64,000 nt of DNA. Origin: Agarophyton chilense (lineage: Eukaryota > Rhodophyta > Florideophyceae > Gracilariales > Gracilariaceae). The notes beneath the pieces are model-generated. The model did not search any database, had not been told where the DNA came from, and was given only the letters and a program-made list of their open reading frames with translations. The stretch is from assembly GCA_030374765.1 (NCBI GenBank), contig JARGXX010000002.1, forward strand, positions 1,612,001 to 1,676,000. The letters run 5' to 3'. The first letter of the stretch is position 1. Every line of letters starts with the position of its first letter. This document shows, in pieces, positions 2,960 to 62,028 of the stretch. A program made the position numbers and the translations under genes.

Positions 2960-3104
2960 CGCGAATGTCGCTGGTTGTACAAGAAGACTTTAGGAGCGGT
3001 CGAGTTGATATGCAACGTTTGGAAGGTTGTCGAGACCGTGAAGCCGGAGCGAAATACGCTGTCGATACGCTTTTATGTTCTTGCGTTGCGAGTGATCCGT
3101 GATT

Positions 3105-19568: not shown

Positions 19569-20569
19569 GATTCCCTTTCTACCCGTGAGGCACGCCTATT
19601 GTCTCCTTCCATCACACCATACAGTGATAGCGAGCGACAGCGGCTCGGGAATCGGAGTGGTGTCTGTACACGACACAAGATCCCTTGAGGATCAGATCTC
19701 GGCGCAAGTATCGGTTGGGGAGGGCGCGCAACGTCGTCTGCGCCCGATTTGAGCGACAACCATTCGAGTAAGGACTGTTATGAGGGCGATGCAGTGTACC
19801 TAGCACGCTCTCGGACATCTTTTCGGTAGTGGACCTGCTTGCTTGCGGTTCTGCTTCCGCATAGCCCCCCTGTCTAACCAAGTTGGTGTCTCACCTTTTC
19901 CCGGTTACTTAAACTTCGGGTCCCTCCTAGGTCTTTGCGCAGCGCCGTCCCGCCTGGCCTTTCCTACGGCTCGACAACCCTTCACGTAGTGCTGCCCTTG
20001 ATTGGCGGCGTCGCGACCGTAACTGTTTGTCCGGCTTGTCACTGAAGGTTTCCTGGCTTCTCGACCTTTCAGGTTTCGTCTACCTTATTAGGATTGACTC
20101 GTGGCGCCGGTGGGGCCTGAGCCTGCGTCGATACAACCATTGAGGTGTTGGCCTGGGCTCGTGGTGGAAGCTTCCGGTTGTGAGACCTTATTGGTGTTGA
20201 GCGGCCCCGTCGGTAATTACGCGACCTTTTTCCGGTTTTGAATTCCGGTTTACCCTCAAGGTAATGACAGGATCGCGCCACCTCCGCGCACGCGTTCGAA
20301 CCCATTCGGTACCACGTCGGTGCACCTCGCGCCGCATCGTTGTTTCGTCACTGATAACTCGAAGGGGTGATTCGTCCCCACAAGCAGCACCAGGGCTCGA
20401 GAGACGTGAGATGCCGGTTACCATTGAGGTTGAAGAAGTGGGCGATTCCGAGGGGATTGATACCCCTGCCATTATTCCTTTAAGGTCGGATTGGTGCCCT
20501 TCCACGATACCTCAAAGGTCTTGACCCGCTCGCGACCGCACGCCGGCCACTGTTGTACCCGAAAGGTCA
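19569..20569. other. EA spacer between 3' LTR and antisense ORF
   Basis: It begins with the complement of the polypurine tract (19569-19581). The rest holds short frames only and is rich in AGGT-containing short motifs. The N-terminal part of the plus-strand ORF may reach into it (20264-20524, Arg-rich frame) but I cannot fix its start. Confidence 0.4.
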
Positions 20570-22729
20570 GTGTCGGTACTACCGGAAAGGTTGGATCCGT
20601 TGGCCGTCTCCTCAGAACGGACCGAAGAGGCTCTACTTCAGAAGGATGAATACGCGCTGGTGTTCACCGCGGGGGTGGAGGTCGAGTCATCACCTCGTTC
20701 GTCGGGTCGAGCTACGGCCTTCCCAACAATGTCAGGTAGCGTCCCATCTCGTGGCCGTGGACGCGGATGTATTACCAAGAGGGTGACTCGCTCGACTTCG
20801 CGAACGCCTACCAACATTTTGTTTCGCAGCATGCCTGTCCCTGCGACTCAGTTCTCCCCTGGGACTCCGGCTGACCAGTACCAACGCAGTGGTGGACTTC
20901 CTTCGACGATTCAAACCAATTGGGCTCACAATCTCGCGTTCGGTGCGGCGAACCGGACGACGAGACAGTATGGACCTTTTCGTATTACCTTCGACCAGGT
21001 GACGAACAATGACCTGTTGAAGCACGATTGGCCTGCGGCGGTGGGGAATTCGTCACCGCCGGCAGCTCCTACCGGACCACAATTGGATACCTACTTGGGT
21101 TTGTCCTGTTGGGACTGCGAGCGCCTTCGCTCCGTTCCATTGCTTTTGAAGAAACGGGACCAAGAGTCTCAACCTCGTCAGGGTCGACTGAAATGTTACC
21201 AGAGTCGGCAGCGTCATACACCTTTGAGGTATTTCATCCCGCCGATATATCAGAGCGACTTGCCGTATGTGCGCATCAAACCGGAGCTGGATTATTACCG
21301 TCGATTGGTGGTGCAAGTGTGACAGTACCCGTCTATTCCGGAGACGTAGCTTCCGGTTTCACCTGACTTGGTTTCCCTGAATCGGCCTTTCACCACTATC
21401 AATTGGGCTGACCGTAGTAGGTGGGGCGAGGATGCAGCGACGGAGAGTCGCGTTCGCACTCGCAACTCGTACACTCGCGTCATGCATATGTTTCATAACG
21501 TCTAGTACTTCTTACAACCTACGAAAGACAGGCGCGATTGGTACGTGCTTCGACCAGAGTGGTGGGAGTCCTATGAGGTTCCGTTATCACTGAGCGTTCC
21601 CACTCCGCCGGTCTTGGCGTACTTCGGGAGTCAGATTTCCCGGAACCTAGAGCGGTATTAACTCATATGGTCGATTTCCTTCTCGGAGTGGACCGTATTG
21701 CTTGCCATTCTGGCTCTCGAGGCCGCCCGTTACGGTATCGATTGGGATTGTCGCAATCCCGACTCTGATATATACCGAGATGTTGTTCAACCTGTAGGTC
21801 GCATCTTCTTCATACCTCCGAGGGTTGCCCAGGATATTTCCCGATTTGGTTACGAGAACATCGTGGGGGGAACCGATTATACCGTCAAGGATTTGGACTC
21901 ACATCTCGAGCAGAGCAAGAATTACCATTGGGATTCCCATCAAGGTTGGGAGGCTTTCGATCTCGCTATTTGGGAGATTGTGCCTCGACGCGCCCAATAT
22001 TATCCCGGGGAGCCTCCTGTTTATGGAGCTCCCGCGAGCCCCGAACCTCATCATGGTACTGTGGAGACACCAGTTGGTCGTTATGCTGGTCCCTTTCCGT
22101 CCGAGCCGTTACCTCAAGGTCGAAAGTCGCCTATCCCTACGGGTGTGACTCCTACTCAACCGAGCTCCTCGCGGGTTGCTGGTCGGGTTCGACCTCTATT
22201 GGCGGGTATTGCTCGTCCTCCACCACAACCTATGATGGATTCTCCGGCCGCGGTCGGTTTGCTGGCTCGAATTCGCCAGTCTTGCGTCATCAACTTTCAG
22301 AGTGCTGGGCCTACCTCCGTGGTTGCTTCATTAGCGCTCCTTGAAGGTTTGCTGCCGCGCCATGCGCAAAACATGGAGGCGCTGAACCAACTTGGTGAGT
22401 TCCGGAATCAGTTCCAGTTGAATATGTACCAACTGCCCACCCGTTAGGTCGCCAATCTGGCAAGCGTCTCTGCTGCTGCGCCATCTGATCTTTTGACGGA
22501 TCCCCTTCTAGGTTCAAACTTGAACCCTGCGGTTTTGCAACCTGCTCCGGCGGTTCCTTTCGTTCATCCTCTTTTGGTTTCGACTCCTCTCCCCAGTTGC
22601 GGGGCTACCACTCCTTCGCTACCTCTTAGGTCAATGGCTCCTAGCATTTCCGCAGGTTTTCCTCCTTGGGTAGTCAATAACACTGGTATTCCTGATTCCA
22701 TTGCTCCTAAACCGACTGGTCCTTCTTAA
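20570..22729 (+). pseudogene. Antisense ORF of EA, divergent and broken
   Basis: The plus-strand frames 20570-21322, then pieces to 21660, 21698-22447 and 22493-22729 follow the EB and EC antisense proteins in order. LPYVRIKPELDYYRRL parallels PPEYGFDVAYYRTYG of EC. RPEWWESYEVPL and LAYFGSQI parallel LPAWWSKVEVPRG and IYYIGSRL. SEWTVLLAILALEAARYG parallels AEWAARVAAHLLWDAHDH. It is much more diverged than EB and EC are from each other, and at least four stops interrupt it. The Pro-rich part at about 22010-22240 and the region near ALLEGLLPRHAQNMEAL correspond to the linker and C-terminal end. No known domain was recognised. Confidence 0.6.
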
Positions 22730-22904: not shown

Positions 22905-25900
22905 CATCTGCTCCTTGCGACGGCGCCAATATCTGATAGGGAAGTGTGGGGGTATTGCGGCTGGGGGTTCGAGGGTGTCCCCTTTTGGCCCGCAGGCGTA
23001 CCACCTTACGGTGTACTTCAGACCATTTTAGGTTCGCGTGTGGCCCACCAGACGGTCAACGGGAAATTCCTGTGAGGTTTGGTCCTGATCTTTCGGGGGA
23101 ACGCTACCTTGAGGGTTCATACGTTCCGAGTTGGGAGCTTCGTGTGTGGGAGCCGGGTCGTCAGCTCCCGCATTTACCGTGTGAGGTTCGATTTCCGTCC
23201 CTGTTAGAGGGTTATAATCCAGATCATCCCGTTGTAGTTAATCATTCACCTCAATTGGGGCGGGGTCCTCCGAGGGTCGAGTGCGCAGAGCTACCGCTCT
23301 GGGCTCTCGGGCCGAGGTGCCCGCCTCCATGCGATGTTGAACCGTTTCAGGTGCTACCGTAATACGGTCAATTGATATCGTATTCTGTATTCCATCTTAG
23401 TCAACCGTAACGGTGTGGTCTGATGCGTTCAATACCTTATAAGGTCCCACTGATTTGGGTAGAAGCTCCGAACTGATATCTCTGTCAATAGCTTCTTCGT
23501 CTGCTTCATCACCCGGTCGTGGTCTTTTACCTGAGGGTGGGTTGTCTATGTATACATATTGTCCCGAAGATACAGAGACCACTTTGGTTACCCTACGGTC
23601 GTAGTCGGCCTTGTACCGCTTCTGGGCTGCATTGAGGCGGCGCTCTGCATGTTTGAGAGCCCTCCTCAACCTCAAAAGGTTATTCCGCTTGACCTGGGCA
23701 GGGGTCAGTGCGCCAGCTGCAGTGCTGGTGATATGATCTCCCTGAACTACAATACCTGGAGGGTGTCGCGAAAGAACCAAATCAAAGGGAGTGGTCTGCG
23801 TTGACCGGTGTACCTGAAGGTTATAGGAGTAGGTGAGCGGTTGAAACAGCTCATCCCACCCAGTTTGGGGCTCTTCCGTATAGTGTCGTAGCCTTGATAC
23901 CAATGTGTGGTTAAAGCGCTCGACCTGTCCGTTCGTCTGCGGGTGGTAGGCAGTAGTGAAATATTGCTTGATACCCAAGAGGTTACAGACTGCTTCGAAG
24001 AACTTAGATACCAAGTTTGAACCATTATCGGTAAGACGGTACATTGATGCACCATACGGGTAGACCCAATTGTTGAGGAACGTGATCGCCAGCGTGGTTG
24101 ACTTCATCTCCTTTAAAAGTATCGCTCTCGTGAGCTTTGAAAACCAGTCGCTGATCACTAGAATGTGCTGATACCCATTCGTGGTTTTGGGAAGTGATCC
24201 TAGAAGGTCTATCGCAACAAAATCCAGTAGACCCGCTGCTGGAAACAGCTTGAGGTACTTTTGATGCTTTCGAATACCACTGCGGGTACGAACACACGAT
24301 TCGCATTGACCTACAAAGGTATAGACATCATGGGCCATATGAGGCCAATAGAACAGTTGCCTCAAGGTTTAATACATCCTGGTGGTACCGGGGTGTCCCG
24401 ATAGTCGCGGGTAGTGCGCGAGATACAGGACTCTCGAGCGCAGTGCCTTCGGTACCACATTTTGAAGGCTACCATCCAAGGTTGACCTTCTCACGATGTA
24501 CCCATTGTGGTCCACATCGAACGATGATTCTTTGAAACCAATTTGGTCAGCCAGGGTTCTGCAGTACGCATCCTGGGCCTGTTCTCGAAGAAATTCCTCT
24601 CGGGTTACGGGCATGAAGTTCGTTTCCTCTAGGGTCAGTATCTGCGTTGCCATGTCGGTGTTCCGCAAAGCACCTTCTTCAGGTAAGTCCCAATATCCTT
24701 CTAGGTGTTCGCCGGTAACATTTTGGTTTGATGACACCAAAAAGCAACGGATATCATCGTCCACCGGTTCTGTCTCTAGCCCTGAGGTGTTTAAGCGTGA
24801 CATAGCGTCAGCTATGTTGTGCTTGATACCTGGACGGTACTGTACGTCGTATTCAAACTCCGACAGTCTCAACCTCCCACGGGCAAGTCTACCAGACGCA
24901 TCTGCGAGTCCGAGGATCCAACTTAAGGCGTCGTGGTCCGTACGCAACGTAAAGCCCTCACCACACAGGTATGGACGGGGCATCAACATGCTCCACACTA
25001 CTGCTAGACGATCCTTCTCGGTTACCGTGTAGTTCTGCTCCGCCTCATTCATAGCACGGCTCCAGTACGCTATAGGTAATTTGTCTCCGCTGTGCTGGTA
25101 CTGCATGAGACAACAACCAATTTGGGCATGGAATGCATCTGTATCCAGCGTGTATGGTCGACCTGTTTTCGGTAACGCTAAGATTGGCGGCGACAACAGC
25201 GCTCGTTTCAATTCCTCAAAGGTATTCATTTTCGTCGTTCGATAGATTCTCAAACCGTTAAGGTTCACCTTTCTGGAGCTTCTTGTTGAGGGGAGCCGCT
25301 GTTTTCGCGAATCCCTTCACGAAGCGACGATAGACGTTATATAAACCTGTAAAGGACCGTACGTCTGTCTGGGATCGTGGCAACTTGACCTCGTGTACGG
25401 CTCTAGTGTTGCTTGGCGCAACCTCTAGGGTACCAGGGCCCATGATGTGTCCCAGGTATTCAACCGTTCTGGTAAAGAAGACGAATTTGCGTAGCTTCAG
25501 CGTCACCCCCGCCTCAGCTAGGAGGGTTAGTACGATGCGCAACCCGAAAGGCATCCGCATGAAGCGAAAAAAACCTGCGTGGCCCGTGAAGGTCGTTTTG
25601 TCTCGATCCACTTCACCTACAGGTACCTGCCAATAACCACAATTGGCATCCAACGTGGTAAATATCTGCGCATCTCTCGAGGAGTCGATGCACTCATCCA
25701 TTCTAGGTATCGGGTACAAATCCCTGATGGTCACGCTATTGAGCCTCCTGTAGTCCACACAAAACCTCATGCGGTTATCCCGTTTCTTCTGAACCAGAAC
25801 CACGGGACTAGCCCAATCTGAGTTGGCTGGTTCAATTACACCTTCTTGGAGCATTCGCTCCACTTCTTTGAGTTCTACTTCTCTCGCCTTCGAACCTGCA

Positions 25901-29401: not shown

Positions 29402-30035
29402 TGTCGTACAATCACCTCTGTGGTATGCTACTGTCTTGTCTCGGGAGCGTAGTGACGCTCAACCGTAGGGAGCGTGTTGAAGCTCAACCTTAAAAGGTAG
29501 ACGTAGTAAACCTCGATGGTAACAGGGCACCGTGAAAACCCGCACGGGCAAATGGCGAGGCGACTAGCCTATATCGTGTAGGTGAACGATGGTAGGCGTC
29601 GACGCGCGGGAAAGCCTATGTGGTAGTTGAGAAACAATGAACCAAAAGGTATAGTCGTGACCCAAGTGATGCCTGTCTTTATCAGATTAGGATGGGGGAG
29701 GTGCAGTTCCCTATATGCAGTGGACTGCACTCTCTAGATCACCCGGGAGGTGCCAGCAAGGCACGGTATCTGACCTAGTGTCAGAGACCTGGCCAACGCT
29801 GGCTACAGGGCCAGGTGGCCACTCAACTACTGTACTAAAATAAATATAATTACAATTACAATTACTAACAATTACTCAACCAGAAGGTATATGTCAACAC
29901 TACACGTGGCTGACAACACCTAGATGGTAGCTCGCCCGGAGCTGCATGGCCGATGATCCCTCGCATCCATCAACTACAAGGTCAGTGTAGTATATCGACA
30001 ACCTCAAAGGTCAAACCTTCCGCCACTATACGACA
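29402..30035 (-). repeat. 5' LTR of EA
   Basis: 634 bp, the upstream LTR in the element's minus-strand sense. It differs from 18935-19568 at scattered sites, which implies that insertion is not recent. Confidence 0.9.
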
Positions 30036-32013: not shown

Positions 32014-32901
32014 TGAAGGACGATGCCCTTCAAGGGGGTGTCTTCCCACAACTTAGAGATTTCGCTCGCTTGAGGACTAGTTTGGTCTATGACAATCTAT
32101 ACCGCTATTGCGTGCCGACGGCCCGTTAGGACCGGAGGTGCACACTGGTGGAACACGTGGACTGCACGGATGCTGACGCTCGAGTGGGAGGCGTGTCACA
32201 CGTGGCCCAGATTCTACCTAATGGTTAGTATTATTTAGTATTATTTAGTATTTACTTAGCTACGCTATCGCTATTTAGTGTCTATTTTTCGGGCGCGCGC
32301 CCACTGTCAAGGGCCGCGCGCCACACTACTTAGGAGGTTGAGCACTGCTCCCTAGTAAACACCCTCTTGGGGGAGACCAAGGAGGGAGTCTTGGCTCTGA
32401 ACTCTTCGCCTTTGGCGCGTCTTCACCGCATACTGCGTGAGCGCCCGTTGCACGTTAGTTCATCCACCCCTCTGTCCACCAGAGTGCTACCACCACCGTG
32501 GGTTCATATTGAATCGCCGAAACTTGTCGTAGTCTCGCCCCTGTATAGGGTTTTGCCCCCGTTTTCCTCTTGTTCTCCTTTTTGGCTCTCGTGAGTGGCT
32601 GCCTCACTCACCTCGCTCGTCCACCTCATACGAGTGATTCCTCGCCCCTTTTCCGACAATCGCCGTCGTACCACTCCGCCTAGGATTGATCACACCCCGG
32701 ACTGTGCCGTGCTCACCTAAACACTCTAGGTATATCCCGCAGGATTGGCCTCGGTCTTTCACCCGACTTCGTCGTGCCTTTCCAGTGTGGCTCTGTTTCT
32801 GTGCTCCGCTGGGACGCATCTCCTCCGCCTAAGGCGTTTCTCTCAAGAGAAAAAGATCCCAAACATCTTCGTAGCGTCTCCGCTCCAAGCGTTGTCGTAC
32901 A
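32014..32901 (+). repeat. 5' LTR of EB
   Basis: 888 bp, starting TGAAGGACGATGCC and ending GTTGTCGTACA. Closely similar to 42167-43051 and 8398-9283. It contains GTATTATTTAGTATTATTTA direct repeats near 32228-32250 that may include the core promoter. Confidence 0.9.
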
Positions 32902-32904
32902 AAC

Positions 32905-32922
32905 TGGTCTCCCGACTTAGAA
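32905..32922 (+). promoter_or_regulatory. EB tRNA primer-binding site
   Basis: TGGTCTCCCGACTTAGAA, three bases after the LTR. Identical over 18 bases to the EA site although the LTRs of EA and EB are unrelated in sequence. Confidence 0.85.
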
Positions 32923-33051
32923 GTTTGAGTCGGGTACACTCAGTCACGATTAATCGGAAAGAGGACTCACAAATTGAGGTTGATCTCAGTTGCTCTCTTT
33001 GAGGAAGCTTCTTGGCCCCACTAGCCGATCCGGTTTGGGTACTCACGTGTA

Positions 33052-34869
33052 ATGGATTCTGATATCATGTCGTCCAAAAACCGTCCGAGGACGCGGAGTC
33101 CAACTAGTGCACTGGAACACTCGCAACCATCCCGTATCCCGGTCCATTCACGGTCTCATACCTGTGAACCGACTAGCGTGCCAGGTGGAAGGACCTCGAG
33201 ACTTCCTGTCTCTGATTCGATAGCCCCAGCAAGTGGAGCAGGACCGGCGTCTGCCGCCGCCCAGATGATCTCCCCTGCTAGGGATGTCATCCTCCATCCC
33301 AGCTTTCCAGCTGTGGAAGAGCAACCCCGCTCTTTGCTGGAAGCTCAAGTCATCCTTGCAAAGGAGTTCGATTCCATTCGAAAGAAGGTAAACCACACTG
33401 CTACGCAGGATTTTTCTGAGGACCTCCGTGTCCTCTGTGCGGATGTGAACTCGATTCTAGAGTCCCTTGGTGGACCCTCGGCCTTTGTCAAGGACGTCAC
33501 GGACAAGTTCTCGTGCGTCCGAAGCCGTCTCGAGACGTTGGAACAAACTCTGATGTCGGGGGATGATCCGGCCGAGCCGGTTGCAGTATCCCACAAGGGA
33601 AGAAAGGAAGAGAACCCCCAGGCTCGAAAAAAGCGAAGGAACACGGATCCTGAACCGTCGGATTCCTCATCCTCGGAGTCCGACTCTTCCGACTCATCGG
33701 TGGAAGTAGCTCGGCGTGAGCGTTCCTCACGCTCAAAGCGGTCAACAGCCACCCATGGTGTGATCCGCGCCCGCACGAAGGGAAGGAAGCACACAGGTTT
33801 GAAGGAGCTGAAACCGACCAATTCGCTCTTTAAGAAGCTCTTATCATACCGGTACTATCGTTTAAAGGACTCCTCTTTGGATCGTACATCCCGTGGTACG
33901 GGAAGAGTGAAGGACTGCATTAAGCGAATGCAGCTCTCACTACGAAACCAGTTGTTTTCTGGAGAAGACCCAATATTGGTGTTGGATTTCTTGGCACGAT
34001 TTGTCGCGGAAGCTGACATCCTTGGAATGAACGAGGGACAGGCCTACATTTCCCTACCGTACTTGTTACGTGTGCTTGCAGAAGACCAGTATCACTCTGT
34101 CAGAGGTTCATCACGCGTCTCCAAAGGAGGCGTCACATGCTGGCCTGAAGCAGTTCAGTACCTCCTGAGGTCGTATGCTACTAACTCCGCCATTCAGCAG
34201 GCTATACACTCCCTGCGGGACACTCGCCAACGTCCAGGCGAGTCGGAAACCGATTATTCGTTGCGCCTTAACAAGGCCTTCCACCGCTGTGGCAATTTTT
34301 ACCCCGCTGAAGAGCGTTGTACCATGTTTGTCGATGGTTTGGACCCGGCGATCCGGACTCTTGTTGCTTGAAGTCGAGAAGATAGACCTAAAGCCACGTA
34401 TTTGGAACCAGTGCAGTTCGCTCGCGCAGAAGGTGAAGCCCTGCGCGCACGCACTCCTGGCTCCAGGGTTAGATCTGCAAAAGCGTTGATGTTACGACCG
34501 GGTACTCCGTCAGCTTCGATGATCGACGAACAGGCCTCTCGAAGGGATTATGATAACGTGCAGCTAGCCCATAGCGACGTTCACTCCATCCCGACAACAG
34601 AGGTACCGTCAATCTTGGGTGAGTCAAAAAACGTGATTGGGGATGACACGCTACTCTATGCGGATAATGGTCGCGTTCGTGCGCCACGCGTCCCACACGA
34701 GAGTGGTAATGTCCGCTTTTCGCGTCCTGGTTGGAGAGATACCCGCCCCGCGGTGATGTTCGCCGAGCCTCGCCACCCAGCACCGGCTTCTGATCTGATT
34801 TGTCATCTCTGCTACCAACCAGGCCATACTTCTCCACAATGTGTGTTGTCTTTCCGAGAATGGGAATAA
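33052..34869 (+). pseudogene. gag: EB gag, one internal TGA
   Basis: One frame from the ATG at 33052 to a TAA at 34867-34869, broken by a TGA at 34369-34371 that is probably a decayed Arg codon. The N-terminus is Ser/Pro-rich. A low-complexity SSSSESDSSDSSVE stretch lies near residue 205. The capsid-like region runs from about residue 300 to 440 (EDPILVLDFLARFVAEAD, YLLRSYATNSAIQQAI, SETDYSLRLNKAFHRCGNF). A single zinc knuckle CHLCYQPGHTSPQC (CX2CX4HX4C) lies near the end. It forms the particle shell and binds RNA. Pol begins in another frame. Confidence 0.85.
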
Positions 34870-34921: not shown

Positions 34922-37900
34922 TTGCATCGTATATCCGTGCTCGAACGGATGTTCCACGTCACGTGTCGCTTCCCTGAGCTCGGGTGGTACCTGCACCGGA
35001 ATCCCGTGTCACCGACGTGGTCGGTCACCCCACGGCTTCTGCGGTACCTTCTGGACCTGATGCCCCGGCGTTGCCTGCTCAACGCCCTGAGCAGCCGCCT
35101 CCGGCGTAGCAGGCCCAGAAAAAAACTAAATGTGGGAGTCTTCTCTCAAGGAGGGGCGCCCTCAAAGTCGAGGTCGACGGCGCCCGAGGCGTCCAAGCCT
35201 CGCTCCACGGTCAAAATCCTTTCAAGGAAAGAGGCCGTCAATGACGTGAACTCGAAACACTTTAGTGTTCTGCGTCGTCCGTGGAAACGTGTTTCCCATA
35301 ACCGGTTCCCGGATAGACTTCTAGTGATGGCCAAGAGAAACTACAAGGTCTATGCCGACCTTGGCCTTTCATCCCAGTTTATGGTGCGACACCTTACCGT
35401 CTTAGACACCGGTGCCGGTCCGAGCTTTGTCGTGGAGGAAGTGTTACCGCCTGCATTGCAGTCTAGGATCCGCCGCGACCACGTCCCGGAGGTCGCTGAC
35501 GCGAACAACAAACCGTTGGATACGGTGGGGTTCATAGAACTGGTAGTCGGCGTTGGCGCTCGCGTGGTGAAACTCGACTTCGTCGTATGTCGGAAATTAG
35601 CCGCCCCAGTCATCTTGGGTTTCGACTTTTGCGACAGCTTCGTCGAAGCGATCTTCCCCCGCCAACGGCGTGTCGAGATGGAGGATGGATCGTCCACTCC
35701 GATCGTTCGTCGTCCGCTAAAGCGTGCCACGAAGAAGCATGTCCCGATACCGGCAGCAAAGGAACCTGGACCGGATAACCGTGAATCTAATAAGCTCCGC
35801 GTCGTAGCGTCGTTGTGCGTCCCGCCTGAGTCCCAAATGATGGTGAAAGTAACCTCCCGTCAACACGGACTCCGGGTCTTGCAAGCATTGTCGTCACTGA
35901 ATGACAGGCACAGCCTCGCAATTGCGAATGGAATCGTCCATGTGAAGCCAAACCAACCGTTTCAAGTGCTGATCGCCAATCTAGGGACAGTACCCCAGTA
36001 TCTGGTGAAGAACCAAGTGATAGGGTCCGTCATGCCGCACCCCATCGCTATGGTGCCGACAAAGCTGACCGCAGCTGACGTTCTCGGACTCGTTCAATCT
36101 AAGAAGGGGGACAGCCCGGAACCCATTTCATCACCGGTACCCGGGATTCAACCTGTAAAATCAGGGACGCAGCCCGTTTCAACGAGTGGTGACCGCCCCG
36201 ATCCAGTCCAAGAACTCGAGGACCTGGATCTCAGCCACGTCCCGGAGTCATACAGCCATCGATTGCGAGAAATTTTAAGGGACTTCCCCACTATGTGGGA
36301 CGGCTCCCTTTGTGAGATTGCCACTACGGGACACCGGATTGATCTGCTACCGGACACCCGACCCATCTCTCAGCACCCATACCGTGCCGCACCCGCCGCA
36401 CGCGCGGAAGAAAAGGCACAAGTGGATAAAATGCTTCCAGCAGGAGTCATTGAACCGACTCAATCGCCGTGGGCTTCTCCAGTAGTACTGGCTCCAAAGC
36501 AGGATGGTTCCTGGAGGTTTTGTGTCGACTACCGTCGGTTGAATGCCGTCACCGTCAAGGACGTGTATCCAATCCCAAGAATGGAAGAGTAAATTGACTC
36601 GCTGGGCACCGCCACCGTCTTGACAAACCTGGACGCCAATTGGGGATAATGGCAAGTTCCGGTAAGGAAGCAAGACCAGGATAAAACCGCTTTCGCGTGT
36701 CACTCCGGTCTCTACCGTTTCAAACGGATGCCTTTTGGTCTTACCAACGCCCTCGCTACTTTCCAGCGAGCCATCGACATCCTATTGGCCTGCTTCAAAT
36801 GGCGTACCTGCCTGGTCTACCTGGATGACATAATCGTCTTCTCAGATAATCTGGGCAAACATCTCACTCATGTGAGGGATATCATGACCACGCTACGAGA
36901 TGCGGGTGTCACTCTTAAGTTGAAGAAATGTGACTTCTTCACGGACACCGTGAAGTATGTCGGCCATGTTATCTGTCCAGGACGTGTTACAATCGAGGAG
37001 ACTCGTGTAAAGTCACTCAAAGAGGCTAAAGAACCGCGGACGCAGACCGAGCTTCGTTCCTTTCTGGGACTCGCGAACGTCTACCGACGATTCATCCCGC
37101 ACTTTGCGGACAAGGCTGCACCGTTAAACGCGCTTTTGCGGAAAGGCCAACCACCAAAACTGGACCCCCTAACCCCCGTTCAAACGGAATCTTTTAACTC
37201 TCTTAAGGATTCTGTCGTCTCCGCCCCGATCTTCTCGTTGTCCAAGCCTGGAAGGCCCTTTTCCGTAGATACGGACGCCAGCGACTACCAAGTAGGTTGT
37301 GCACTGTTTCAAACTGCACCCAATGGGGAAAGACGCCCCGTAGGGTACTGGTCCCGATTGCTAAACGTCCACGAGAAGAATTAATCCGTCTCGGAGAAGG
37401 AATGTCTTGCAGTAGTGTGGGCATTACAAACGTTGCGCCCCTATCTCATGGGTAATCATTTCACCGTTTTTACGGACCACGCATCGCTTCGATGGCTACT
37501 CTCCATCTCGGAGCCCTCAGGCTGCTTGATGCGTTGGCGTCTCCGTCTAGCGGAATTTGACTGACGTGCAGTACCAAAAAGAATCGTGTAACACCGAAGC
37601 CGATGCTCTTTCTCGCCTGGTCACTACTGGTGAAGCACTACCCGTCAAAGACGAAGAAATAACCTGTTTTGCAGTGAATGGCTACGACGCTACCATCGAA
37701 GACGAGGAACGAGACACGGACTCTTAAAATTCCGGTTCCGAATTAGACGACTTTCTTCTCTCGGAAGATTCCGAGAAACCCTTACCAGGGAACTTCGTGC
37801 CTATTACTCCAGAGGAGATGATACAGGAGCAGTTCGCTGACCCGTTCTGCGCGAAGGTCCGCGCTCAACTCAATGGAGGAGGTACTCTCCCCTTTCAGGT

Positions 37901-40140
37901 GAATGACGCCGGATACCTTGTACGGACCGTCGGATCGCACCCACAAATCGTGGTACCACATAACCTCCAGTCGAGAGTATTGCGGATGTCGCACTACTCC
38001 AAACTGAGTGGCCACGTCGGGGGACGGAAACTTTACCTCACCCTACGCCGTAACTTCTACTGGCCTGCCATGGCAGTGGACTGCTACGCAACGGTGCGGT
38101 TTTGTACCGATTGCGCTCTGAACCGTGTCAAACTCCGCCGTCATGCGACGAAGTTGAAGCTGTTTCCAGCTCGCTCTCCATTGGAGTTTGTTTCCATCCA
38201 TATACTCGGTCCCTTGCTTACCACTAAGCGGAATTACAAGTTCTTACTCGTAATTACGGATCGCTTCTCCAAGCTGGTCCGGACCGTACAGTTACGGAAG
38301 ATCTCCGCTATGAGCGTGGCTCAAGCCTTCGTCCTACACTGGGTCTTCGTCTACGGCCCACCGGTCAACCTCCTCTCCGATAACGGGAGACAGTCCGCCT
38401 CTCGTTTCTTCGAGGATGTATGTCGCATCTTGGACATTAAGAACCTGTTCACGACCACATACCACCCCCAAACTAATGGACAGGCCGAACGGTTCAACCG
38501 GACATTACTTGCGACACTCCGTTCATACTTTGCAGACCACCCCAAAGATTGGGACTTGTTCACTGATGCGCTCAGCTTTGCGTACAATACGCAGGTGCAC
38601 AGGACAACTGGATTAACGCCCTTCGAGCTGGTCTTGTCCCATACCCCACCGCCCGTGGCGCTGGAACTACAGCCCACGCTTGATACCTTTCTGCCACCGA
38701 CTGCTTACCGCGAAGCGTGGAAAACTTGGCTCAAGAAGCTCGTTCCCGCCGCACGGCGTTCAATGGGCCGAGCCCAGGCCGCTTAAAAGCGTGACTTTGA
38801 TATCAAAGCCCCTCGCTCGCCGCCACGTCTCGCCCCCGACGATTATGTATTCATCCGCAAGGAGTATTGGAACCCAGAGAAGGAGAAACGCCACAAGCTG
38901 TCACCCGTTGCCGACGGCCCCTTCCGGGTTATTTCGGTGGCTCCCGACACTGTCGTTGTTGACCTCGCTGGTAATCACGAACGCATCTCCCGCCATCGCG
39001 TGGTATCGGCTTCTCCGCCGTTAACATCCCAACCTACTGGTGTGACTGCTCCGGTTGAAACCGATTCATCGACCCCCTTACCGCAGGTCCACCCGCGTCC
39101 TTACGCGTTACCACACCCATCCCGGGGTTTGTCTGACCTTCCACTACCCGCGGCGCCCAACCCGAAAGAAATCATGTTGGGTATTCGTCGCTCCTCCCCA
39201 GTCCACCCGACGGACACCAACTCCGGTGCATCGTCTAAGGAGGGGGAGGCGCCCGACAGCCTTCGTAATCCGGTCGATACCGTCGCTGGAAACGCCGCAC
39301 CGTCGCGTGTCATTCTTCGCCCATCAGAGGTACCTGATACCGACGTCCTGGACGACTCGACGCAGTCGCTATCAAAGCCTCAAAACGCAGCTGTGGATAA
39401 AGCCACCAAAACTCGCCGAGGTGTCACCACACGTGCAATACGGAATGCAAATGCGCTCGACGCACTGCAGCCTGATACAGTACGAGTGCACGACGCACCG
39501 CCAAGTACCCTGCACAGGGAGGCGGATACATCCACGGCGCTGACGCCGGACAGCCAGCCATTGGAACGCTCACGTGACTACACGGAACCTCGCCGTGGGA
39601 CAGAGATGTGCGACAATGCGCCACCGCCCCAGCGAATCTCACCGCCGAAGCGAGCTTCACCACGCCGATTAGTGGAACGACCACCCGGGTTACCCGCTGG
39701 TGTGGGTGGGCCCTTCAACCGGAGTGGGAAGCGCCGAAACAAGCCTGGCACTTGGGGAAAATGAGCCGCCGAACTCGGGTCGACATTCTACTCAGCCGAG
39801 GACTGCCTTGCGCGCTACACGGTCCGACCGGAAGGAAGCCGCCCAACGCGTGATCACTTCGGTACCCCCTGGCTCAGGACGGGTACCACCCGGAAATAGC
39901 GACACCGTCATACGGGATGGCCGGGAAGTGTACCGACAAGAGTTCGTGGTCGGACGCATTTTGGAGCACTCCTACCACCCAGAGGGGTATATCCAATACT
40001 TTGTCCGTTGGTACGGGTACGGCCCCGAACGGGATTCAGACGAACCGATAGAGCACCTACCTCGGTCAAAGGTGGTAAAGTATCATCGTCGTACTATCAC
40101 GGCTTTGCTGGCTACCATAGACCGAGCCCAAGTGGGATAA
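34922..40140 (+). pseudogene. pol: EB pol: protease, RT, RNase H, integrase, chromodomain
   Basis: Protease: VLDTGAGPSFVVEEVLPP near 35400. RT: GVIEPTQSPWASPVVLAPK, FCVDYRRLN, MPFGLTNALATFQRA, LVYLDDIIVFS (active site intact). RNase H: VDTDASDYQVGCALF. Integrase: zinc-binding HYSKLSGHVGG with CTDC, core block SIHILGPL in which the first catalytic Asp is His, LLSDNGRQ and TNGQAERFN. A chromodomain (EFVVGRI, YFVRWYGYGPER) ends pol at 40140. In-frame TAA codons lie at 36590, 36647, 37382 and 38784, and frameshifts near 37560 and 39750. The copy is dead. Confidence 0.9.
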
Positions 40141-40340
40141 GAAGACACGATGGGGATAAAGGAACAGAAGATCTGGATAAGGACGCTTGGAAGAAGGAGA
40201 AGATGCACAGAAGACCTGGAGAAGGACACTCAGAAGAAGTGGAAGAGAAGAAAGAAAACAAATACGTCATAGACGGAAGCAGTTTACTATTTTCGGAGTT
40301 GCTGCACACACTACCGCACAGCAGGATATACTAACCAAGA
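40141..40340. other. EB convergent spacer
   Basis: 200 bp between the end of pol and the end of the opposite-strand ORF. It is purine-rich on the plus strand (repeated GAAGA and GGAGAAG). No gene. Confidence 0.5.
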
Positions 40341-42131
40341 TCACAAGGAATTAGTTGGAAAACTCGGATTGCCGTGCGCGCCAACCGAATCGCTAGCGAA
40401 GTTACTCCCACCGGTCAGGCGTGCCACGAGGGCGTCTCTCATCGCACCGATGTCGCCGCTAGCCGCTTGCGCATTCAGTCCAACACCCCGAAGGAACTGG
40501 GAGATCACGACCGCCTCTGGGCGTCTGGGAACCTCGATAACTTCCGGTTCGTCCGGCAACGCCGCAGCCACTGGATCGATGACCGCACCTGCGTGAGTCG
40601 CTCCCTGCGCCGACTGCGCCGTAGTATCGGCACCATCGGGATCTCCAACGTCTTGCATGACCTCGTCGCCACGGTATTCGCCCTCCTCCTCCGGGAGATC
40701 ATCACCGCCATAGGTGTGGTAGAAGTCATCCGAGTTGACAAACCCCACAGGGTGCCCGTATGGTATGCCTCGCGGAGCCATCCGGAGTGCCGACGCCTCC
40801 GCCTCGGAGATCTCTTGCTGCTCCCATGGGATAAAGAAGATGAAATCTCCCGCCAACGGCGTGCGACGCCCCGGAGACCGATCAGCCCCACCGGCTTCTT
40901 GACCACGGCCGCTCTGCCGGACAGGCACGACAGCCCAGTCGACACGCCCAATGATGTCGATGAGCTCCTGAGCTTCATCAGCGTTATTGACACCTCCAAG
41001 AGGGAGTTGAAGGTCCAGCTGCCGGATGTAACCACGCAAACGCGGAGGAAGATACCACAGTCGATACTGGTCGTAGGCTTCCCACAAGATGTACGCCGCG
41101 GCGCGGACTGCCCATTCGGTTAGGTCCACGAACCATAAGCCGAAGTGCGGATCCTCGATGAGGTACGATCCCAGATAGGAGACGACTGGAGGCAACTCCA
41201 CGTAACATCCCCGGCACACCTCGACGGAGGACCACCACCCAGGCAGGGGAACGTATCGCCCGAACTGATAGAAGGGACTAATCCGGTTTATCTCCGTGTT
41301 CTGATAAGGGACAAGGAACCCAAAGCGGGATCTGCCCCGACGCTCCTCGCGGATGAAGTTCTGTAACCACCGATATCGGGACTCACGACGAAGGTGAGGG
41401 AACTCGGCACGAATGATCGGACGGACCCAGCAGATCGTGTCTTGACGCGCTCGCGGTTGACCGCGCCATGCGTAAGTTTCCAACGCCGCAAGGCGGTCAC
41501 AATAGCCGATCCCACCCTGAGTCCGGTACATCCGTAGGTCGAAGCCGAATTCGTCGGGGATGGGGTGTTGGAAGTTCGCCCGGCTGATCCGTGAGTACCC
41601 GATGCGGACGTATATACAATGCGCCTCTTCCGCCGACTCGCGCCTTCGCCGCAGAATCGCGTGAATGGGAACCGCCACACGGCGTCGCCAGTCCCACGAA
41701 GTGGTGATCAAAGCCGGCAGCTCGCCCGGGAGACCCGCATTGCCATCAGCATACGCGGCCACGAGTTCTTCATCGAAGACCGCTGTCGGATGGAACAACA
41801 GAGCTCTCCGGAGAATCGCCGCATGTTGAAGCGGGTTTAACCCGATGAGTTCGTCGTAACTGGGCCAGGTGTCCTCCGCAGGAGTGATATGGCTTGAAGC
41901 TTCAACGGGACCCCGGGATCGGCTCGGCGCGGTTGACGAGGCACTCCCCCGCGGGATGTGGTCGCGGGAAGTTGGCGTACGATGCGGAAGAGCGCTCGAA
42001 GTTCGAGGAGTGGTTACCGCGTTGGTGCGTTTGTCGTTCGGTTGTGCAGCTCTGCCTTCGACAGCCGAGTGGTCGCTGGACGCGTTACGCGGCTCGCTCT
42101 TATGCCGGTTGGACCGTTGCCTCCCCGCCAT
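40341..42131 (-). CDS. Antisense ORF of EB, intact 596-residue unknown protein
   Basis: A 596-codon ORF opposite to gag-pol. It starts with ATG 35 bp from the 3' LTR and ends 200 bp from the end of pol. Residues 1-90 are Ser/Pro/Arg-rich and probably disordered. The conserved body follows: LLFHPTAVFDEELVAAYADG, WDWRRRVAVPIHAI, DEFGFDLRMYRTQGGIGY, RSRFGFLVPY, PLPGWWSSVEVCRGCYVELP, TEWAVRAAAYILWEAYDQYR. A second module holds FIFFIPWEQQEIS and IPYGHPVGFVNSDDFYHTY. An acidic linker and a C-terminal segment (VISQFLRGVGLN) close it. No signal peptide, transmembrane segment or known fold was recognised, so it is not an env-like protein. Homologues sit in the same place in E0, EA and EC. The 3' LTR would have to supply an antisense promoter. 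Confidence 0.75.
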   Translation of the reverse strand: MAGRQRSNRHKSEPRNASSDHSAVEGRAAQPNDKRTNAVTTPRTSSALPHRTPTSRDHIPRGSASSTAPSRSRGPVEASSHITPAEDTWPSYDELIGLNPLQHAAILRRALLFHPTAVFDEELVAAYADGNAGLPGELPALITTSWDWRRRVAVPIHAILRRRRESAEEAHCIYVRIGYSRISRANFQHPIPDEFGFDLRMYRTQGGIGYCDRLAALETYAWRGQPRARQDTICWVRPIIRAEFPHLRRESRYRWLQNFIREERRGRSRFGFLVPYQNTEINRISPFYQFGRYVPLPGWWSSVEVCRGCYVELPPVVSYLGSYLIEDPHFGLWFVDLTEWAVRAAAYILWEAYDQYRLWYLPPRLRGYIRQLDLQLPLGGVNNADEAQELIDIIGRVDWAVVPVRQSGRGQEAGGADRSPGRRTPLAGDFIFFIPWEQQEISEAEASALRMAPRGIPYGHPVGFVNSDDFYHTYGGDDLPEEEGEYRGDEVMQDVGDPDGADTTAQSAQGATHAGAVIDPVAAALPDEPEVIEVPRRPEAVVISQFLRGVGLNAQAASGDIGAMRDALVARLTGGSNFASDSVGAHGNPSFPTNSL

Positions 42132-42152
42132 GTCGACGGCGTGTTCGTCACC

Positions 42153-42166
42153 TAAGGAGGGAGATA
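42153..42166 (+). promoter_or_regulatory. EB polypurine tract
   Basis: AAGGAGGGAGATA directly before the LTR start TGAAGG. Near-identical tracts precede the 3' LTRs of EC (AAGGAGGGGGAGA) and E0 (GAGGGGGATA). Confidence 0.8.
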
Positions 42167-43051
42167 TGAAGGAAAATGCCCTTCAAGGGGGTTTCTTCGC
42201 AGGACTTAGAGTTGGCTCGCTTGAGAACTAGCTTGGGCTATGACAAGCTATACCGCTATTGCGTGCTGACGGCCGGTTAGGACCGGAAGTGCACACTGGT
42301 GGAACACGTGGACTGCACGGATGCCAACGCTCGAGTGCAAGGCGTGCCACACGTGGCCCGGATTCCACCTAATGGTTAGTATTATTTAGTAATTTTTCGA
42401 ATTTATTTAGTTACGCTATCGCTATTTAGTGTCTATTTTTCGGGCGCGCGCCCACTGTCAGGGGCCGCGCGCCACACTACTTAGGAGGTTGAGCACTGCT
42501 CCCTAGTTAACACCCTCTTGGGAGACCAACGAGAGAGTCTTGGCTCTGAACTTTTCGCCTTCGGCGCGTCTTCACCGCATACTGCGTGAACGCCCGCCGC
42601 ACGTTAGTTCATCCACCCCTCTGTCAACCAGAGCACTACCACCACCCGTGGGTTCATATTTAATCGCCAACACTTGTCGTAGTCTCGCCCCTGTATAGGG
42701 TTTCGCCCCCGTTTTCCTCTTGTTCTCCTTTTTGGCTCTCGTGAGTGGCCGCCCCACTCACCCCGCTCGTCCACATCATACGAGTGTTTCCTCGCTCCTT
42801 TTCCGACAATCGCCGTGGTACCGCTCCACCTACGATTGATCACACCCCGGACTGTGCCGTGCTCACCTAAACACTCTAGGTATATCCCGCTGGATTGGCC
42901 TCGGTCTTACACCCGACTCCGTCGTGCCTTTCCAGAATGACTCTGTTTCTGTGCTTGGCTGGGACGCGTCTCCTCCGCCTGAGGCGTGTCTCTCAAGAGA
43001 GAAAGATCCCGAACATCTTCGTGGTGTCTCCGCTACAAGCGTTGTCCTACA
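42167..43051 (+). repeat. 3' LTR of EB
   Basis: 885 bp, TG...CTACA. It differs from the 5' LTR by scattered substitutions and small indels, including GTCGTACA versus GTCCTACA at the end. Confidence 0.9.
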
Positions 43052-44503
43052 ATCGGCATTGCTATCGTTCACTGAATAATCATTTCTATCCCCACTTCCG
43101 TAGTATATGCTGAAGTCTCGGTGGAATTACACCCACATTTAGAAGATACGCAAGGCTCTACGCTGAGTTCCTCTTAAAAATGAATGAGCAGGTTTTTGAA
43201 CATCTTGAGTGTATTTAACCCTCGCGGGGTATTGCAATACACAGAATCACGTTCAAATCCAAATTTGTTTGTATAGAATTTATAAAATACAATTTGTAGT
43301 CAACAAAATTGATGATCATGTGTCAACAAGCGTTTTTAAGACTTTTCAGAGGCATTCCTTAAAAGTTAAAACCCAAAGTTTAAATACCTTTAATTCCATA
43401 CCAATTTAATCCTAATTAATCAACTTGTACCACATATTATGGTCCCTGACGAATCAATCTCTTTAGCAGATGTCACCTTATTCTTACTGATGTTAAAAAG
43501 GGGCGCAAATGCGTTTTTAGACCATAATAAGTTTTAGAATTAGTCGAGCTCCCGTAGAAGTTTTCGAGTTACACTGAACTCGTCGAGATTTGAACCGTTT
43601 TTATCAGTCTCCGAGCGGTCATGAAACCACTGAGCTGCTTTTACTGAAGATAACTGTCTAAAGAATGTACTCTTTGAGCAGCAGGAACGTGGTTAGAAAA
43701 TTCGGTTTCACTAAAAAAATAGAATACGCTACTGCAGCATGAAAGCCAGCGATTTTTACTATTTTTTTGGAAAATAGAACTGGCTTCAAATGAAGCCAAG
43801 CTGGCCTCATGTGAGGCCAATCCGCCGGGCGTGTAGACACTAGGCTTTCCCTGATCGAGCGACGCGCTTTGCGAGCGCATACTACACTATAACAAAACAG
43901 CTCTCCCGCTCTGGGTACGGCTGCTTCCCATACTTTTAAGAAAGAACGGGGTCTATTGTAGACGACCAATTCCATCGCTACATGTGCCACTCACGCGTGA
44001 TTCACCGTGAATTCACGCTTGCCAAGAACGGGCCTGAATTGTGAGGCGTTGATACCGAAGAAATAGCTCCTCATAACATGCAGCGCAGAATCATGTGGCA
44101 GCCAATGAAGAACCGGAGAGCATATCGCTACTATAGTAGATATATGCAAAGTAAACACTTGGCAGATTGACAACCAAATATTCCTGTCGTCACCCAATCA
44201 TATACATAGCTTAACTATTATGGTAGCTTTAAGCTTTCAGGGTCAAAAGGGTTAATGACCACATATTTTGAAAGCGAACCTTTTTGTCGTTTTCACAGTC
44301 TTTTGGGTGTCCTTGTGTCGACGGCACACAGCGCTCGTGCCGAGAAATGAACGCTTTGTTCCCGATGATCGCGTGAGTGTTAGAGATGGAGAGCTGTTTT
44401 AATTACTAACGTATTAAATTCATTTTCCTTTCTAAATACCGTTAAGTTTAATCGCGCCTACCGATTGTTTGCTGTGTACGTGAATGTCGGAGTTGTTGTT
44501 TCT
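43052..44503. other. PiggyBac-like 3' end remnant, then upstream region of the 44504 gene
   Basis: GTCAACAAAATTGATGATCA at 43300-43319 matches copy-1 sequence at about 10165. 43770-43843 matches the copy-1 right end: AAAATAGAACTGGC, palindromes GGCTTCAAATGAAGCC (43782-43797) and GGCCTCATGTGAGGCC (43803-43818), then CCGCCGGGCGTGTAGACACTAG. I read this as the 3' end of the copy at 30036-31835, separated from it by EB. From about 43850 to 44503 there is no gene; this part would hold the promoter of the next host gene. Confidence 0.6.
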
Positions 44504-46360: not shown

Positions 46361-46502
46361 TCAATCCCCTCGAATTCGTTGCCGATAAAGTTATCTACTT
46401 GAGTGAACTACAAAGATGTTTGTAGAAGAAAAGGACATGTATGAAAGACATGCCTGGAAAGTATGTCACAATGTTAGCGAAGCATCTTGCCCAAATACTC
46501 CT

Positions 46503-53342: not shown

Positions 53343-53371
53343 TTTGTGTGAGTCTCTTAACAGACTACAAA

Positions 53372-58466: not shown

Positions 58467-59414
58467 TGTGGAGCAAAACCCGGCGACGGGAAGTGCTCTC
58501 AAGGTGTTCGAAGCCTTGCTCCCTGGGGGAGGCAGACTCAGAGACAGAGCCCTCCGTTCCACCCGTAGTGTGGGGTGTAACTCCCACGGGGGATTCCGGC
58601 AGTACCGACGGAGGTGAGGGGTAGAAACCGTTGGATCGGGAATGGGTATGGGTATCCCAAAGAATGGGGGAAAATCCGGCGAAGAGGAAAAACGGGGCGA
58701 GGGTCGGGCACTAACAGGCACCGGACCCGAGAACCAGAAAAGGGGCGAAACAACAAAAGAAACCCAATACAGGGGCGAAAACCTGTCCTCGAAAGGAAAC
58801 ACAAAAAGCACGCAACAAGTAAGCAGAACCTCCACGGGGTATCGTGCACGCAGGTCGTCTGAGCGGTCCCAAGGGGGTGGTTGCACGGATCCCAAACGTG
58901 GGCACTCTCCAAGTGGAGTCGTGTCCCTACGCAGGCGTTGCTAACCAGAGCCCGTTCCGGGTTATAAGGCCGAAACGATGGCGACGAAGAACCTCTAAAG
59001 GTATCGAAGACCAACCTTGGTTCTCATTTTCTCTGAGCTTCGGACTGTCAGATCTCGTCTCCCTAAGTAGGGCCCACTAACTAAACTCTACAGTAGTGCA
59101 CACCTGCTCAGGGCCATACACGTGGAGATCCAACTGTCAGGGCCCAAAAGTCCAACGTTCTAACAAATATCCGAAAATCGGTGCCAAAATTAAGCCACGT
59201 GTATCACGGGGCCAATCCAACCATGGGCCAATCCAACCATGGGCCAATCCAACCATGGGCCATCCGAATTTTCACTTCCTAGGCGAACTCTAACCAGAAA
59301 ACAGTGCCACCTCAGCACACCTTAGAGGGGATCATAGTCATAACCCTCGGAGGGTTCAATTCTCATTCTATGAGTTGCATCTTCAAGTATCCCCTAACTG
59401 GGCGTTGCTCTACA
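58467..59414 (-). repeat. Probable 3' LTR of EC
   Basis: The right boundary is set by the polypurine tract and TG. The left boundary (TGTGGAGC near 58467) is a guess. It includes TTCGCCCCTGTATTGGGTTT on the minus strand, resembling CTCGCCCCTGTATAGGGTTT of the EB LTR, and a 16-bp tandem repeat (59209-59263). Confidence 0.6.
59209..59263 (+). repeat. 16-bp tandem repeat in the EC LTR
   Basis: GGGCCAATCCAACCAT repeated three times plus GGGCCAT. Exact copies, so a recent expansion or an element under constraint. Confidence 0.9.
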
Positions 59415-59495
59415 TCTCCCCCTCCTTAAGACGAGGAAGAACATTCCGAGCCGCGGGTGTCTAACTTTCCGATCACTATACATACTAATCTCCCA

Positions 59496-61406
59496 ATGGG
59501 GTCCTTCACCACTTCTGAGGATCGCCACAAAACCGGCACATCGGTACAACTTTCTTCCACTCCTCCGACTTTCGGCGATACGCAACTTCTCGCAGCAGCG
59601 GTTCCGACTAGCCCTCTCAAGGGAATGAACCCATACGTCATCAACCCACTCTCGGGGCCATCGGCCTCCGCGCTGGCGGACAACGAAGCTCCCCAGCAGG
59701 GTGAATATTTCTCCGGTTTGGATGCGGCTCCGTCAGGTACCGAACCTTCCGCCTCGGCGGTCAACCGACATCCTCAGGAGGATTTGGACATCACCGCGGT
59801 GGCGTGGAACTCCGCTCATGCGATGCCCTTGGTAGCAAACTCCAGAGGTTGGATCTCAAACGAATCCTTTCGAAGGTGGAGTCCCCTTACCGATCCGGTG
59901 ATATATTCCCGCGCTCCGTGGTTCCATCCGACAGCGGTTCGCGACGATGAGCTCATCGACTCCTACGTGGAGGACGGCTTATTGCCGGGTGGCCTACCTG
60001 TTGAGGTTGTACGTTCTCCCGATTGGAAGGCGCGGGTAGCCATAGAGCCTCAGTATCTATACCGCAGTCGCGGGGAATCCCTGGACAAGGCACGCGCAGC
60101 GATGGCGGCTCTGGCCTACCAGCGATTGGGGAGGTCACGCTTTGACCATCTGGTTCCCCCGGAGTACGGGTTCGATGTCGCCTATTACCGCACGTACGGT
60201 GAGGTCTCCTACGGGGATAACTTGGCAGCTTTTCCCGAAGCCGAGTTCCGCGGACCGGGTTTTCCTCTCCGAGAAGATATGCTCCAATGGAGTCGTCCCA
60301 TCCTTCGGGCTGAATTCAGGTACCTTCAACGGCAGTTTACCCAGTATGGGTTCGATCGACGCGTGCGCTTCGAGCGCCGCTCGCGCTCCCGTTTCGGGTT
60401 CCTTGTCCCGTATCCTCACGTGGAACTGGAGCGTATCCGTAACACGGCGAAGGTTGGGCGATTCGTGCCCCTTCCAGCTTGGTGGAGTAAGGTCGAGGTC
60501 CCCCGAGGGTGCTTTGCTGAACTGCCCCCATGTATCTACTATATCGGGTCTCGTTTGATGCACGACCCGAACTCGGGATACTGGGCCCTCGTTGCAGCCG
60601 AGTGGGCAGCCCGCGTAGCGGCGCACCTCCTCTGGGATGCTCATGACCATTTCCGTATCTGGTATATTCCTCCGATGCTACGGACCATCATGCGTCAGAT
60701 CGACCTTGTCCCAGCGTTGGGTTCGGCCAGCAACGTGCAGGACCTGTATCCAATCTTGGACGTGATCGACAACACCCAATAGGATCGAGTTCCAGTGGCA
60801 AATCAGCCCGCAGGGGAAGGATCCGCGCGAGACAAGTCTCCTGGCCGGTACGATCCGGGCTCCGGTAACTGGGTCTATTACAATCCCTTCGAAGGGGTTC
60901 GCATCAGCGCGGCGCAAGCACGGGCGCTGATTGACTCGCCTCGACCGATGCCGGTTGGACACCCGACGGGGTTCATTTATACCGACGATTACGAGTACGA
61001 GCCTCCAGTAGACCTGGACGATCCAGCGTTGGATAACGAAGTGCCAGCTCCTAGTGGAGTACTTCCTGTGGAGCCATCTGCACCCTTCCAACCAGTGGGA
61101 ACGACCTCAGCTGCGGCGGCGAATGCATCCGGCGGCGGTTCATCTGCTCCCCCCGGGTGGGGTGTGAACACCCTTGCGCAGGCGCCGGTTGCCACTCCGC
61201 AAGCGGATAGTGTGCGACAAGGCCTCGTGAACGCAGGCATTCCGATTCCCCCGGGTATGACGGATGTGAGCCAGATGTTGGCTTTCGCCTCGGCGTACCA
61301 TCAGGGTCAGAATCCCAACGGTGGCGGGTCCCTCCTCGGGCTTTCCGTAGTTCCGCCTTCGGGCAATTGTGAAGTCCATAGCTTGGCGACAATAGTAAAC
61401 TTCTGA
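59496..61406 (+). pseudogene. Antisense ORF of EC, one nonsense codon
   Basis: The plus-strand frame runs from ATG 59496 (open upstream to 59457) to 61406, interrupted only by TAG at 60780-60782 after DNTQ, where EB has Trp (RVDWAVVPV). It matches EB along its length: APWFHPTAVRDDELIDSYVE, DWKARVAIEP, PEYGFDVAYYRTYGEVSYG, RSRFGFLVPYPHVELERI, PLPAWWSKVEVPRGCFAELP, AEWAARVAAHLLWDAHDHFR, YYNPFEGVRISAAQARAL, MPVGHPTGFIYTDDYEY. The C-terminal segment (LVNAGIPIPPGM) parallels FLRGVGLN of EB. It starts about 80 bp from the 3' LTR. No domain was recognised; function unknown. Confidence 0.75.
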
Positions 61407-61710: not shown

Positions 61711-62028
61711 TTACCCGACTTGGGCACGATCCAGATTTGGAGGCAAGGTTACCCGAGCGCGTCGGTGATAGGATAAAACCTTAGACCTCGGAAGGTGCTC
61801 AATGGGTTCCACTGTATCCTCCTCAGGCGAGAATCCGTACCATCGGACTTGGTAGCGAACTTCTCCCTCGGGGGTGTAGATGTGACGCACGATGCGATCG
61901 ATAACGAATTCCTGCGGGTATACTTTTCCCTGTTCGGGCTTGTCTTCCATCTTGGAACGCTCAAGTTCCCTTGAGGGTGCTAACGTAGGGTCTAGACACA
62001 CCCCTGTGGGATCTTTTCCGTGTTGCAA
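61711..62028 (-). pseudogene. pol: EC chromodomain, end of pol
   Basis: 106 codons in the frame of pol: EFVIDRIVRHIYTPEGEVRY, VRWYGFSPEEDT, EPIEHLPRSKVLSYHRR. It shares its spacing and the end DRAQVG with EB. It is separated from the rest of pol by 62029-62550, which carries stops. Confidence 0.8.

Follow-up and report, generated by a model that had tools for sequence, protein, structure and literature searches.

The window, the whole 64,000-nucleotide stretch of Agarophyton chilense DNA analysed here, contains four retroelements or their remains, labelled E0, EA, EB and EC. The minus strand of EB carries an antisense accessory ORF (aORF) at 40341..42131 that encodes 596 aa from an ATG at 42131. 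Its minus-strand reading frame (42182..40341) runs for 613 codons up to a TGA at 40341-40343. Alignments and an AlphaFold2 model place its conserved, mostly helical domain at 40728..41870 on the minus strand, or residues 105-485 when counted over the stop-to-stop frame. Direct repeats mark the approximate LTRs (5' LTR 32015..32909, 3' LTR 42166..43059), and a polypurine tract is evident in the sequence at 42153..42166, all of them on the plus strand. A plus-strand ORF at 33025..34371 is taken as gag from its position and by eye (no Pfam match). It is followed by pol at 36650..39764, where Pfam identifies RT, RNase H and integrase in several broken frames, and by a chromodomain at 39937..40092 (PF00385, E 1e-7), both also on the plus strand. 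In minus-strand sense, the 3' LTR lies directly upstream of the aORF. The insertion is old: of the 936 columns in the alignment of its 5' and 3' LTRs, ~ 25 nt of flank per side included, 101 show a difference. The copy is also atypical: aligned with the 29 others of its family, it lacks 87 columns (29 codons) present in those copies, as well as a single base close to the 3' end, yet the long frame is still open.

A preliminary description held that all four elements are chromoviruses with an ORF on the opposite strand between pol and the 3' LTR. Location and strand stand, but the frame is open end to end only in EB. The EC aORF (plus strand, 59496..61406, first ATG at 59496) is interrupted by an in-frame TAG at 60780-60782. 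That of EA (plus strand, 20525..22729) is broken into pieces at 20525-21322, 21662-22447 and 22448-22729, which are also supported by matches in its own genome, and E0 retains minus-strand remnants at 1282-1866, 2014-2211 and 2435-2989 (1282..2989 overall). The chromovirus assignment is likewise firm in part. At the 3' end of pol, chromodomains exceed the Pfam cut-off in EB and in EC (minus strand, 61756..61914, PF00385, E 5.4e-9), whereas those of EA (a 41-aa remnant, minus strand, 22905..23027, no Pfam match) and E0 are called by eye only. Both EB and EA have LTR repeats and, by Pfam, the order RT, RNase H, integrase. A polypurine-tract region of EC was recognised from its sequence at 59413..59430 on the minus strand. 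The claim that the proteins are related to each other was borne out: the motifs listed for them are present in the translations, and EB and EC share 44% identity across 307 aa (E 4e-73).

Several other features surround these elements. A third copy of the EB LTR (8399-9291) is apparently a solo LTR, and a DDE_Tnp_1_7 transposase fragment (29991-30893, E 9e-23) lies between EA and EB. An inverted repeat of 315 nt with 76% complementarity occupies 4357-4671 and 17292-17606, 12.6 kb apart. Probable host genes fill 44384-55711 and encode a methyltransferase with a 2H phosphoesterase domain (44384-46360), a REJ domain protein (46503-51554), ribosomal S3Ae (52340-53134) and a PPR protein (54017-55711). 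About 4-5 kb ahead of the window start, an E0-type aORF remnant with 59% identity lies on the opposite strand (C2:1607253-1607834).

Coding evidence and selection

One representative each of five families (EB, EC, ED, E0-like and EA) was used to compare codon positions. Identity at positions 1, 2 and 3 is 0.51, 0.59 and 0.31 for EB-EC and 0.66, 0.72 and 0.36 for ED-E0. Across the six pairs among EB, EC, ED and E0-like the ranges are 0.51-0.66, 0.54-0.72 and 0.28-0.36, and across the four pairs that include EA they are 0.40-0.47, 0.44-0.52 and 0.27-0.31. Amino-acid identity among EB, EC, ED and E0 is 34-50%. A 36-frame translation test, which covered four of the ten family pairs (EB-EC, EB-ED, EC-ED and ED-E0), ranked the aORF frame top of the frame combinations in all four, with scores of 846 vs 499 for the runner-up in EB-EC and 1266 vs 798 in ED-E0. 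The runner-up was in every case the sense-strand frame labelled -1. When the commonest base was taken at each site of 30 EB and 30 EC copies, the aORF frame contained no stops and the other five frames contained 8-25. Judged from these sequence comparisons, the aORF is protein-coding.

Selection within families was examined in the same number of copies (30 EB and 30 EC), with variants divided into singletons, found in one copy, and shared variants, found in two or more and taken as mostly predating insertion. Singleton N/S relative to neutral is 1.05 in EB and 0.94 in EC, which is neutral, and shared-variant N/S is 0.60 in EB (Fisher p 5e-5) and 0.54 in EC (Fisher p 0.015). A majority-codon version gives 1.03 and 0.96 for singletons and 0.59 and 0.53 for shared variants (EB and EC, respectively). 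By region, shared N/S is 0.55, 0.64 and 0.57 in the N-terminus, core and C-terminus of EB and 0.86, 0.36 and 0.60 in those of EC; of the individual regions, the cores alone reach significance (p 0.001 in EB, 0.005 in EC). The N-terminal part of EC thus shows no constraint (0.86 on 28 shared variants). The intended positive control failed, as neither the pol tail nor the chromodomain is constrained in these EB copies (1.07 and 1.07), and the EC chromodomain shows no constraint either (1.96 on 12 shared variants). Since neither shows a reduction, the shared-variant test stands without a working positive control; with that qualification, the shared variants carry a signature of purifying selection. 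Most of the differences seen between any two copies are post-insertion decay and would yield a ratio near 1 whatever the gene. The preliminary description had named such a ratio between copies as evidence against a gene; it is indeed found for single-copy variants, but shared variants fall to 0.54-0.60 of neutral.

Could the frame be open simply because of base composition, or because the sense strand or its RNA is conserved, with no protein made? Other long frames do overlap the aORF (sense 40335-41123, minus 40505-41119), and the shared-variant ratio is reduced in one of the other five frames, an EC sense-strand frame (0.48, p 0.006). However, that frame has 21 stops at the commonest bases, where the aORF has none, and it has third positions in common with the aORF frame. 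The strong counter-evidence is the near-random identity at third positions between families while amino acids are kept, which rejects the codon-bias explanation foreseen in the preliminary description and leaves a by-product scarcely credible. A second reading, that the antisense RNA matters through double-stranded RNA control of the element and the protein is secondary, draws on the idea that retrotransposon antisense RNAs could feed siRNA production, as discussed in a passage of PMC7264820. Here the amino-acid sequence is conserved and the nucleotides are not, which makes this very improbable as the main role, although both roles can coexist.

Linkage to chromoviruses and spread

The 79.8 Mb genome (135 contigs) was searched separately with each query, so that all counts are lower bounds. 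Long aORF matches number at least 72 for EB, and there are at least 94 matches for EC, at least 146 for EA and at least 150 for E0 and its relatives. A further family, with 63-66% identity to protein P0002, has at least 88 matches, 61 of them without stops, and proteins P0009 and P0007 as queries recovered open frames of 652, 587 and 611 codons. The genome thereby holds hundreds of aORF matches in at least six families. Outside it, a protein collection contains ten aORF homologues, the two named ones being BWQ96_03215 and BWQ96_10156 of Gracilariopsis chorda, which belongs to the red-algal order Gracilariales. The member furthest from the rest is EA: L062, an EA-type copy with its frame open, is 27% identical to the G. 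chorda protein P0003 (E 4e-13).

The EB LTR, with the 5' LTR as query, was matched at 30 of 30 EB loci and at 1 of 30 EC loci. A chromodomain lies on the strand opposite the aORF, in convergent orientation, at 27 of 30 EB loci and 29 of 30 EC loci. Approached from the other side, 52 chromodomain matches were picked from at least 150; 34 have a listed aORF within 3.5 kb, all convergent, and 18 have none listed. These figures give no unbiased rate, as the aORF list of 34 coordinates is incomplete and was drawn up after both tables had been seen. The sole one of the 18 that was read, C128:807275, picked by its chromodomain and chosen for its long pol frame, does have an aORF on the other strand, where it falls into two stop-separated parts (281 and 342 codons); identity is 61% to P0003 (186 aa) and 54% to P0002 (340 aa). 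Two more of the 18 (C95:1341345 and C96:1151152) have a same-strand aORF ~ 4 kb off, which we read as belonging to a neighbouring element. The chromodomain matches shown to have the gene do not include the top scorers, such as C113:592415. Integrases of EB, EC and EA are only 40-67% identical, yet the aORF occupies the same place in all three. The gene accompanies a number of distinct element families.

Two aspects of element organisation emerged from these searches. Many chromodomain matches lie in a frame of exactly 120 codons (for example window 61756-61914, C115:1452320, C68:4962748 and C98:293423), and several adjoin EC aORF matches; the chromodomain of the EC family seems to have split off from pol. 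Equal-score aORF matches at C68:3138517, 3147714 and 3156911 are spaced by exactly 9197 bases, and two on C77 lie 9249 apart. These evenly spaced matches are probably tandem arrays of one element.

Properties of the protein and alternative roles

The aORF is about 600 codons long and specifies a large helical domain, a variable linker and, at the C-terminus, a short, conserved pair of helices. The preliminary description recognised no domain, and Pfam and PDB sequence searches of the proteins agree, yielding nothing above chance. Structure prediction, which it had proposed as a check, gave a well-predicted helical core in an AlphaFold2 model from a 13-sequence alignment, with block means of 75-95 up to model residue 360 except at 151-170 and 321-340. 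A fold search with this model found no match among PDB or viral structures, capsids included. Searches for TRP28 (PF04195) gave no match with an 8-member alignment at E ≤ 1 or a 13-member alignment at E ≤ 0.1. HBZ of HTLV-1 is a leucine-zipper protein; like the aORF, its gene is antisense at the 3' end of the element, but no leucine-zipper transcription factor domain was found by Pfam in the 8- and 13-member aORF sets.

With hydropathy as the only transmembrane indicator, 13 of 15 proteins have a maximum 19-residue value of 0.93-1.63, as do four of five own-genome families; the peaks are EA (2.09) and P0007 (1.86). The pI is acidic (4.9-6.4) in 13 of 15 proteins and reaches 8.9 in EA and 9.0 in P0007; acidity does not favour plain nucleic-acid binding. 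In the aORF proteins of five families arginine is common and lysine rare, unlike in the sense genes of EB, whose frames contain 4.5-7.4% lysine. One copy per family has 2, 6, 5, 8 and 12 lysines, against 11.7, 12.2, 11.0, 12.8 and 16.8 expected from each copy's own codon base composition (pooled, 33 vs 64.5). Taken singly, lysine is significantly low (p<0.05) only in EB, EC and ED, and P0007 has 35 lysines and P0008 12. Lysine poverty is a trend in part of the family only.

Envelope-like ORFs of plant elements are known from Athila and Sireviruses. Env-like ORFs likewise lie between pol and the 3' LTR (PMC7264820, in the part that deals with them), and EA and P0007 each have one fairly hydrophobic stretch, so that an envelope-like or cell-to-cell movement protein for passage of the element between algal cells comes to mind. 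Env-like ORFs are in sense orientation, however, whereas the aORF is antisense; the other 13 of the 15 proteins lack a strongly hydrophobic stretch and a viral fold match is absent, which together make such a role unlikely. Capture of a host or viral gene that rides along as cargo, with no part in element function, would accord with the lack of any relative of known function and with gene capture by LTR elements, described in a section of PMC7264820. It appears quite improbable, because the same place in families with divergent integrases and the relatives in another genus mean that the gene is old and has been retained; element copies took up the output of the genome searches. The helical domain, linker and C-terminal helix pair would also suit an additional particle protein with a structural or assembly function, for example a scaffold or another capsid-like protein. 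A gag-like ORF (called by eye) is already present on the sense strand and the fold resembles neither a capsid nor any other structure searched, and we regard this as rather unlikely. The aORF is very probably a genuine protein-coding accessory gene of chromoviruses, convergent with gag-pol and situated between pol and the 3' LTR. Codon positions and shared variants thus support the preliminary suggestion of a new accessory gene, as a conserved gene of an unnamed protein family.

Known antisense genes and a possible role in red algae

Antisense ORFs in the corresponding position of plant Tat-lineage elements, to which the preliminary description had pointed, are confirmed in the literature. The aORF-3R of Tat/Retand-type elements (maize Grande GENE23, rice RIRE2, Silene Retand) is antisense, lies between pol and the 3' LTR and is conserved across families, according to the passages concerned in PMC7264820 and PMC11963269. 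The A. chilense aORF is alike in position, in its many copies and in between-family conservation. Retand, however, is a non-chromovirus lineage of flowering plants in which 97% of clusters encode TRP28 (PMC11963269, same passages), whereas the elements here have chromodomains and the aORF lacks a TRP28 match. That no such ORF had been described for chromoviruses of this kind is upheld insofar as our literature searches uncovered no report of this gene in algal chromoviruses, but an antisense extra gene outside the Tat lineage is known: the gypsy-type element Boty (BcGypsy1) of the fungus Botrytis cinerea has an additional antisense gene, brtn, as outlined in PMC7264820 and PMC8365987. Like the aORF, brtn is an antisense extra gene of a gypsy-type element outside plants. 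A survey of 3372 green-plant Ty3/gypsy elements tallied additional ORFs of 250 codons or more together with their orientation (PMC6317226, in the portion relevant here), and reverse ORFs may exist in green-plant chromoviruses. An antisense gene at the 3' end, with its antisense promoter located in the 3' LTR, is also found in retroviruses, as in HBZ of HTLV-1 and related antisense genes (relevant parts of PMC7264820 and PMC11963269). The functions of antisense extra genes of LTR elements are stated to be unknown where PMC7264820 treats them. The arrangement is thus already known from Tat/Retand and Boty, and the protein family and host lineage appear to be new.

Expression may follow from this arrangement. 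The aORF ATG is 35 nt from the 3' LTR in EB, ~ 65 nt from the polypurine tract in EC and ~ 10 nt from the polypurine-tract complement in ED. On the basis of the EB and EC distances, we infer that an antisense transcript would start in or beyond the 3' LTR and express the aORF. Upstream of the ATG, the aORF strand of EB, EC, ED and an E0 relative has a pyrimidine tract and then TTAG or TTAAG, which in EB is the polypurine-tract complement ending in TTAG just before the ATG; no such tract could be made out in EA. It resembles a splice acceptor but is also the plain complement of the plus-strand priming tract, and so proves nothing.

As far as sequence features can indicate, the product is most likely a soluble factor whose antisense transcript would come from the 3' LTR. 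With less certainty, such a soluble, intracellular, helical protein may act in trans on the element's own cycle. In line with a proposal made for maize GENE23, and by analogy with HBZ of HTLV-1, it might, tentatively, regulate element expression or counter host silencing. More speculatively, and with a rather low probability, the aORF may represent a new fold as old as the Gracilariales chromoviruses, present in at least six families and acting as a trans factor against host control. Were this true, lysine poverty would fit a protein that dodges ubiquitination while engaged with host machinery linked to ubiquitin or silencing. The polypurine-tract complement might also supply the antisense mRNA with its 3' splice site, in which case one DNA element would serve both plus-strand priming and antisense splicing.

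Regardless of the role, the aORF proteins form a family of their own in red algae, for which one genome supplies hundreds of matches, many stop-free copies among them, and which can be usefully aligned. These copies and a helical model of good confidence make expression, localisation and structure directly testable, and if the fold is new the protein becomes a structural target. The family adds to the case for repeated origin of antisense accessory genes in Ty3/gypsy elements.
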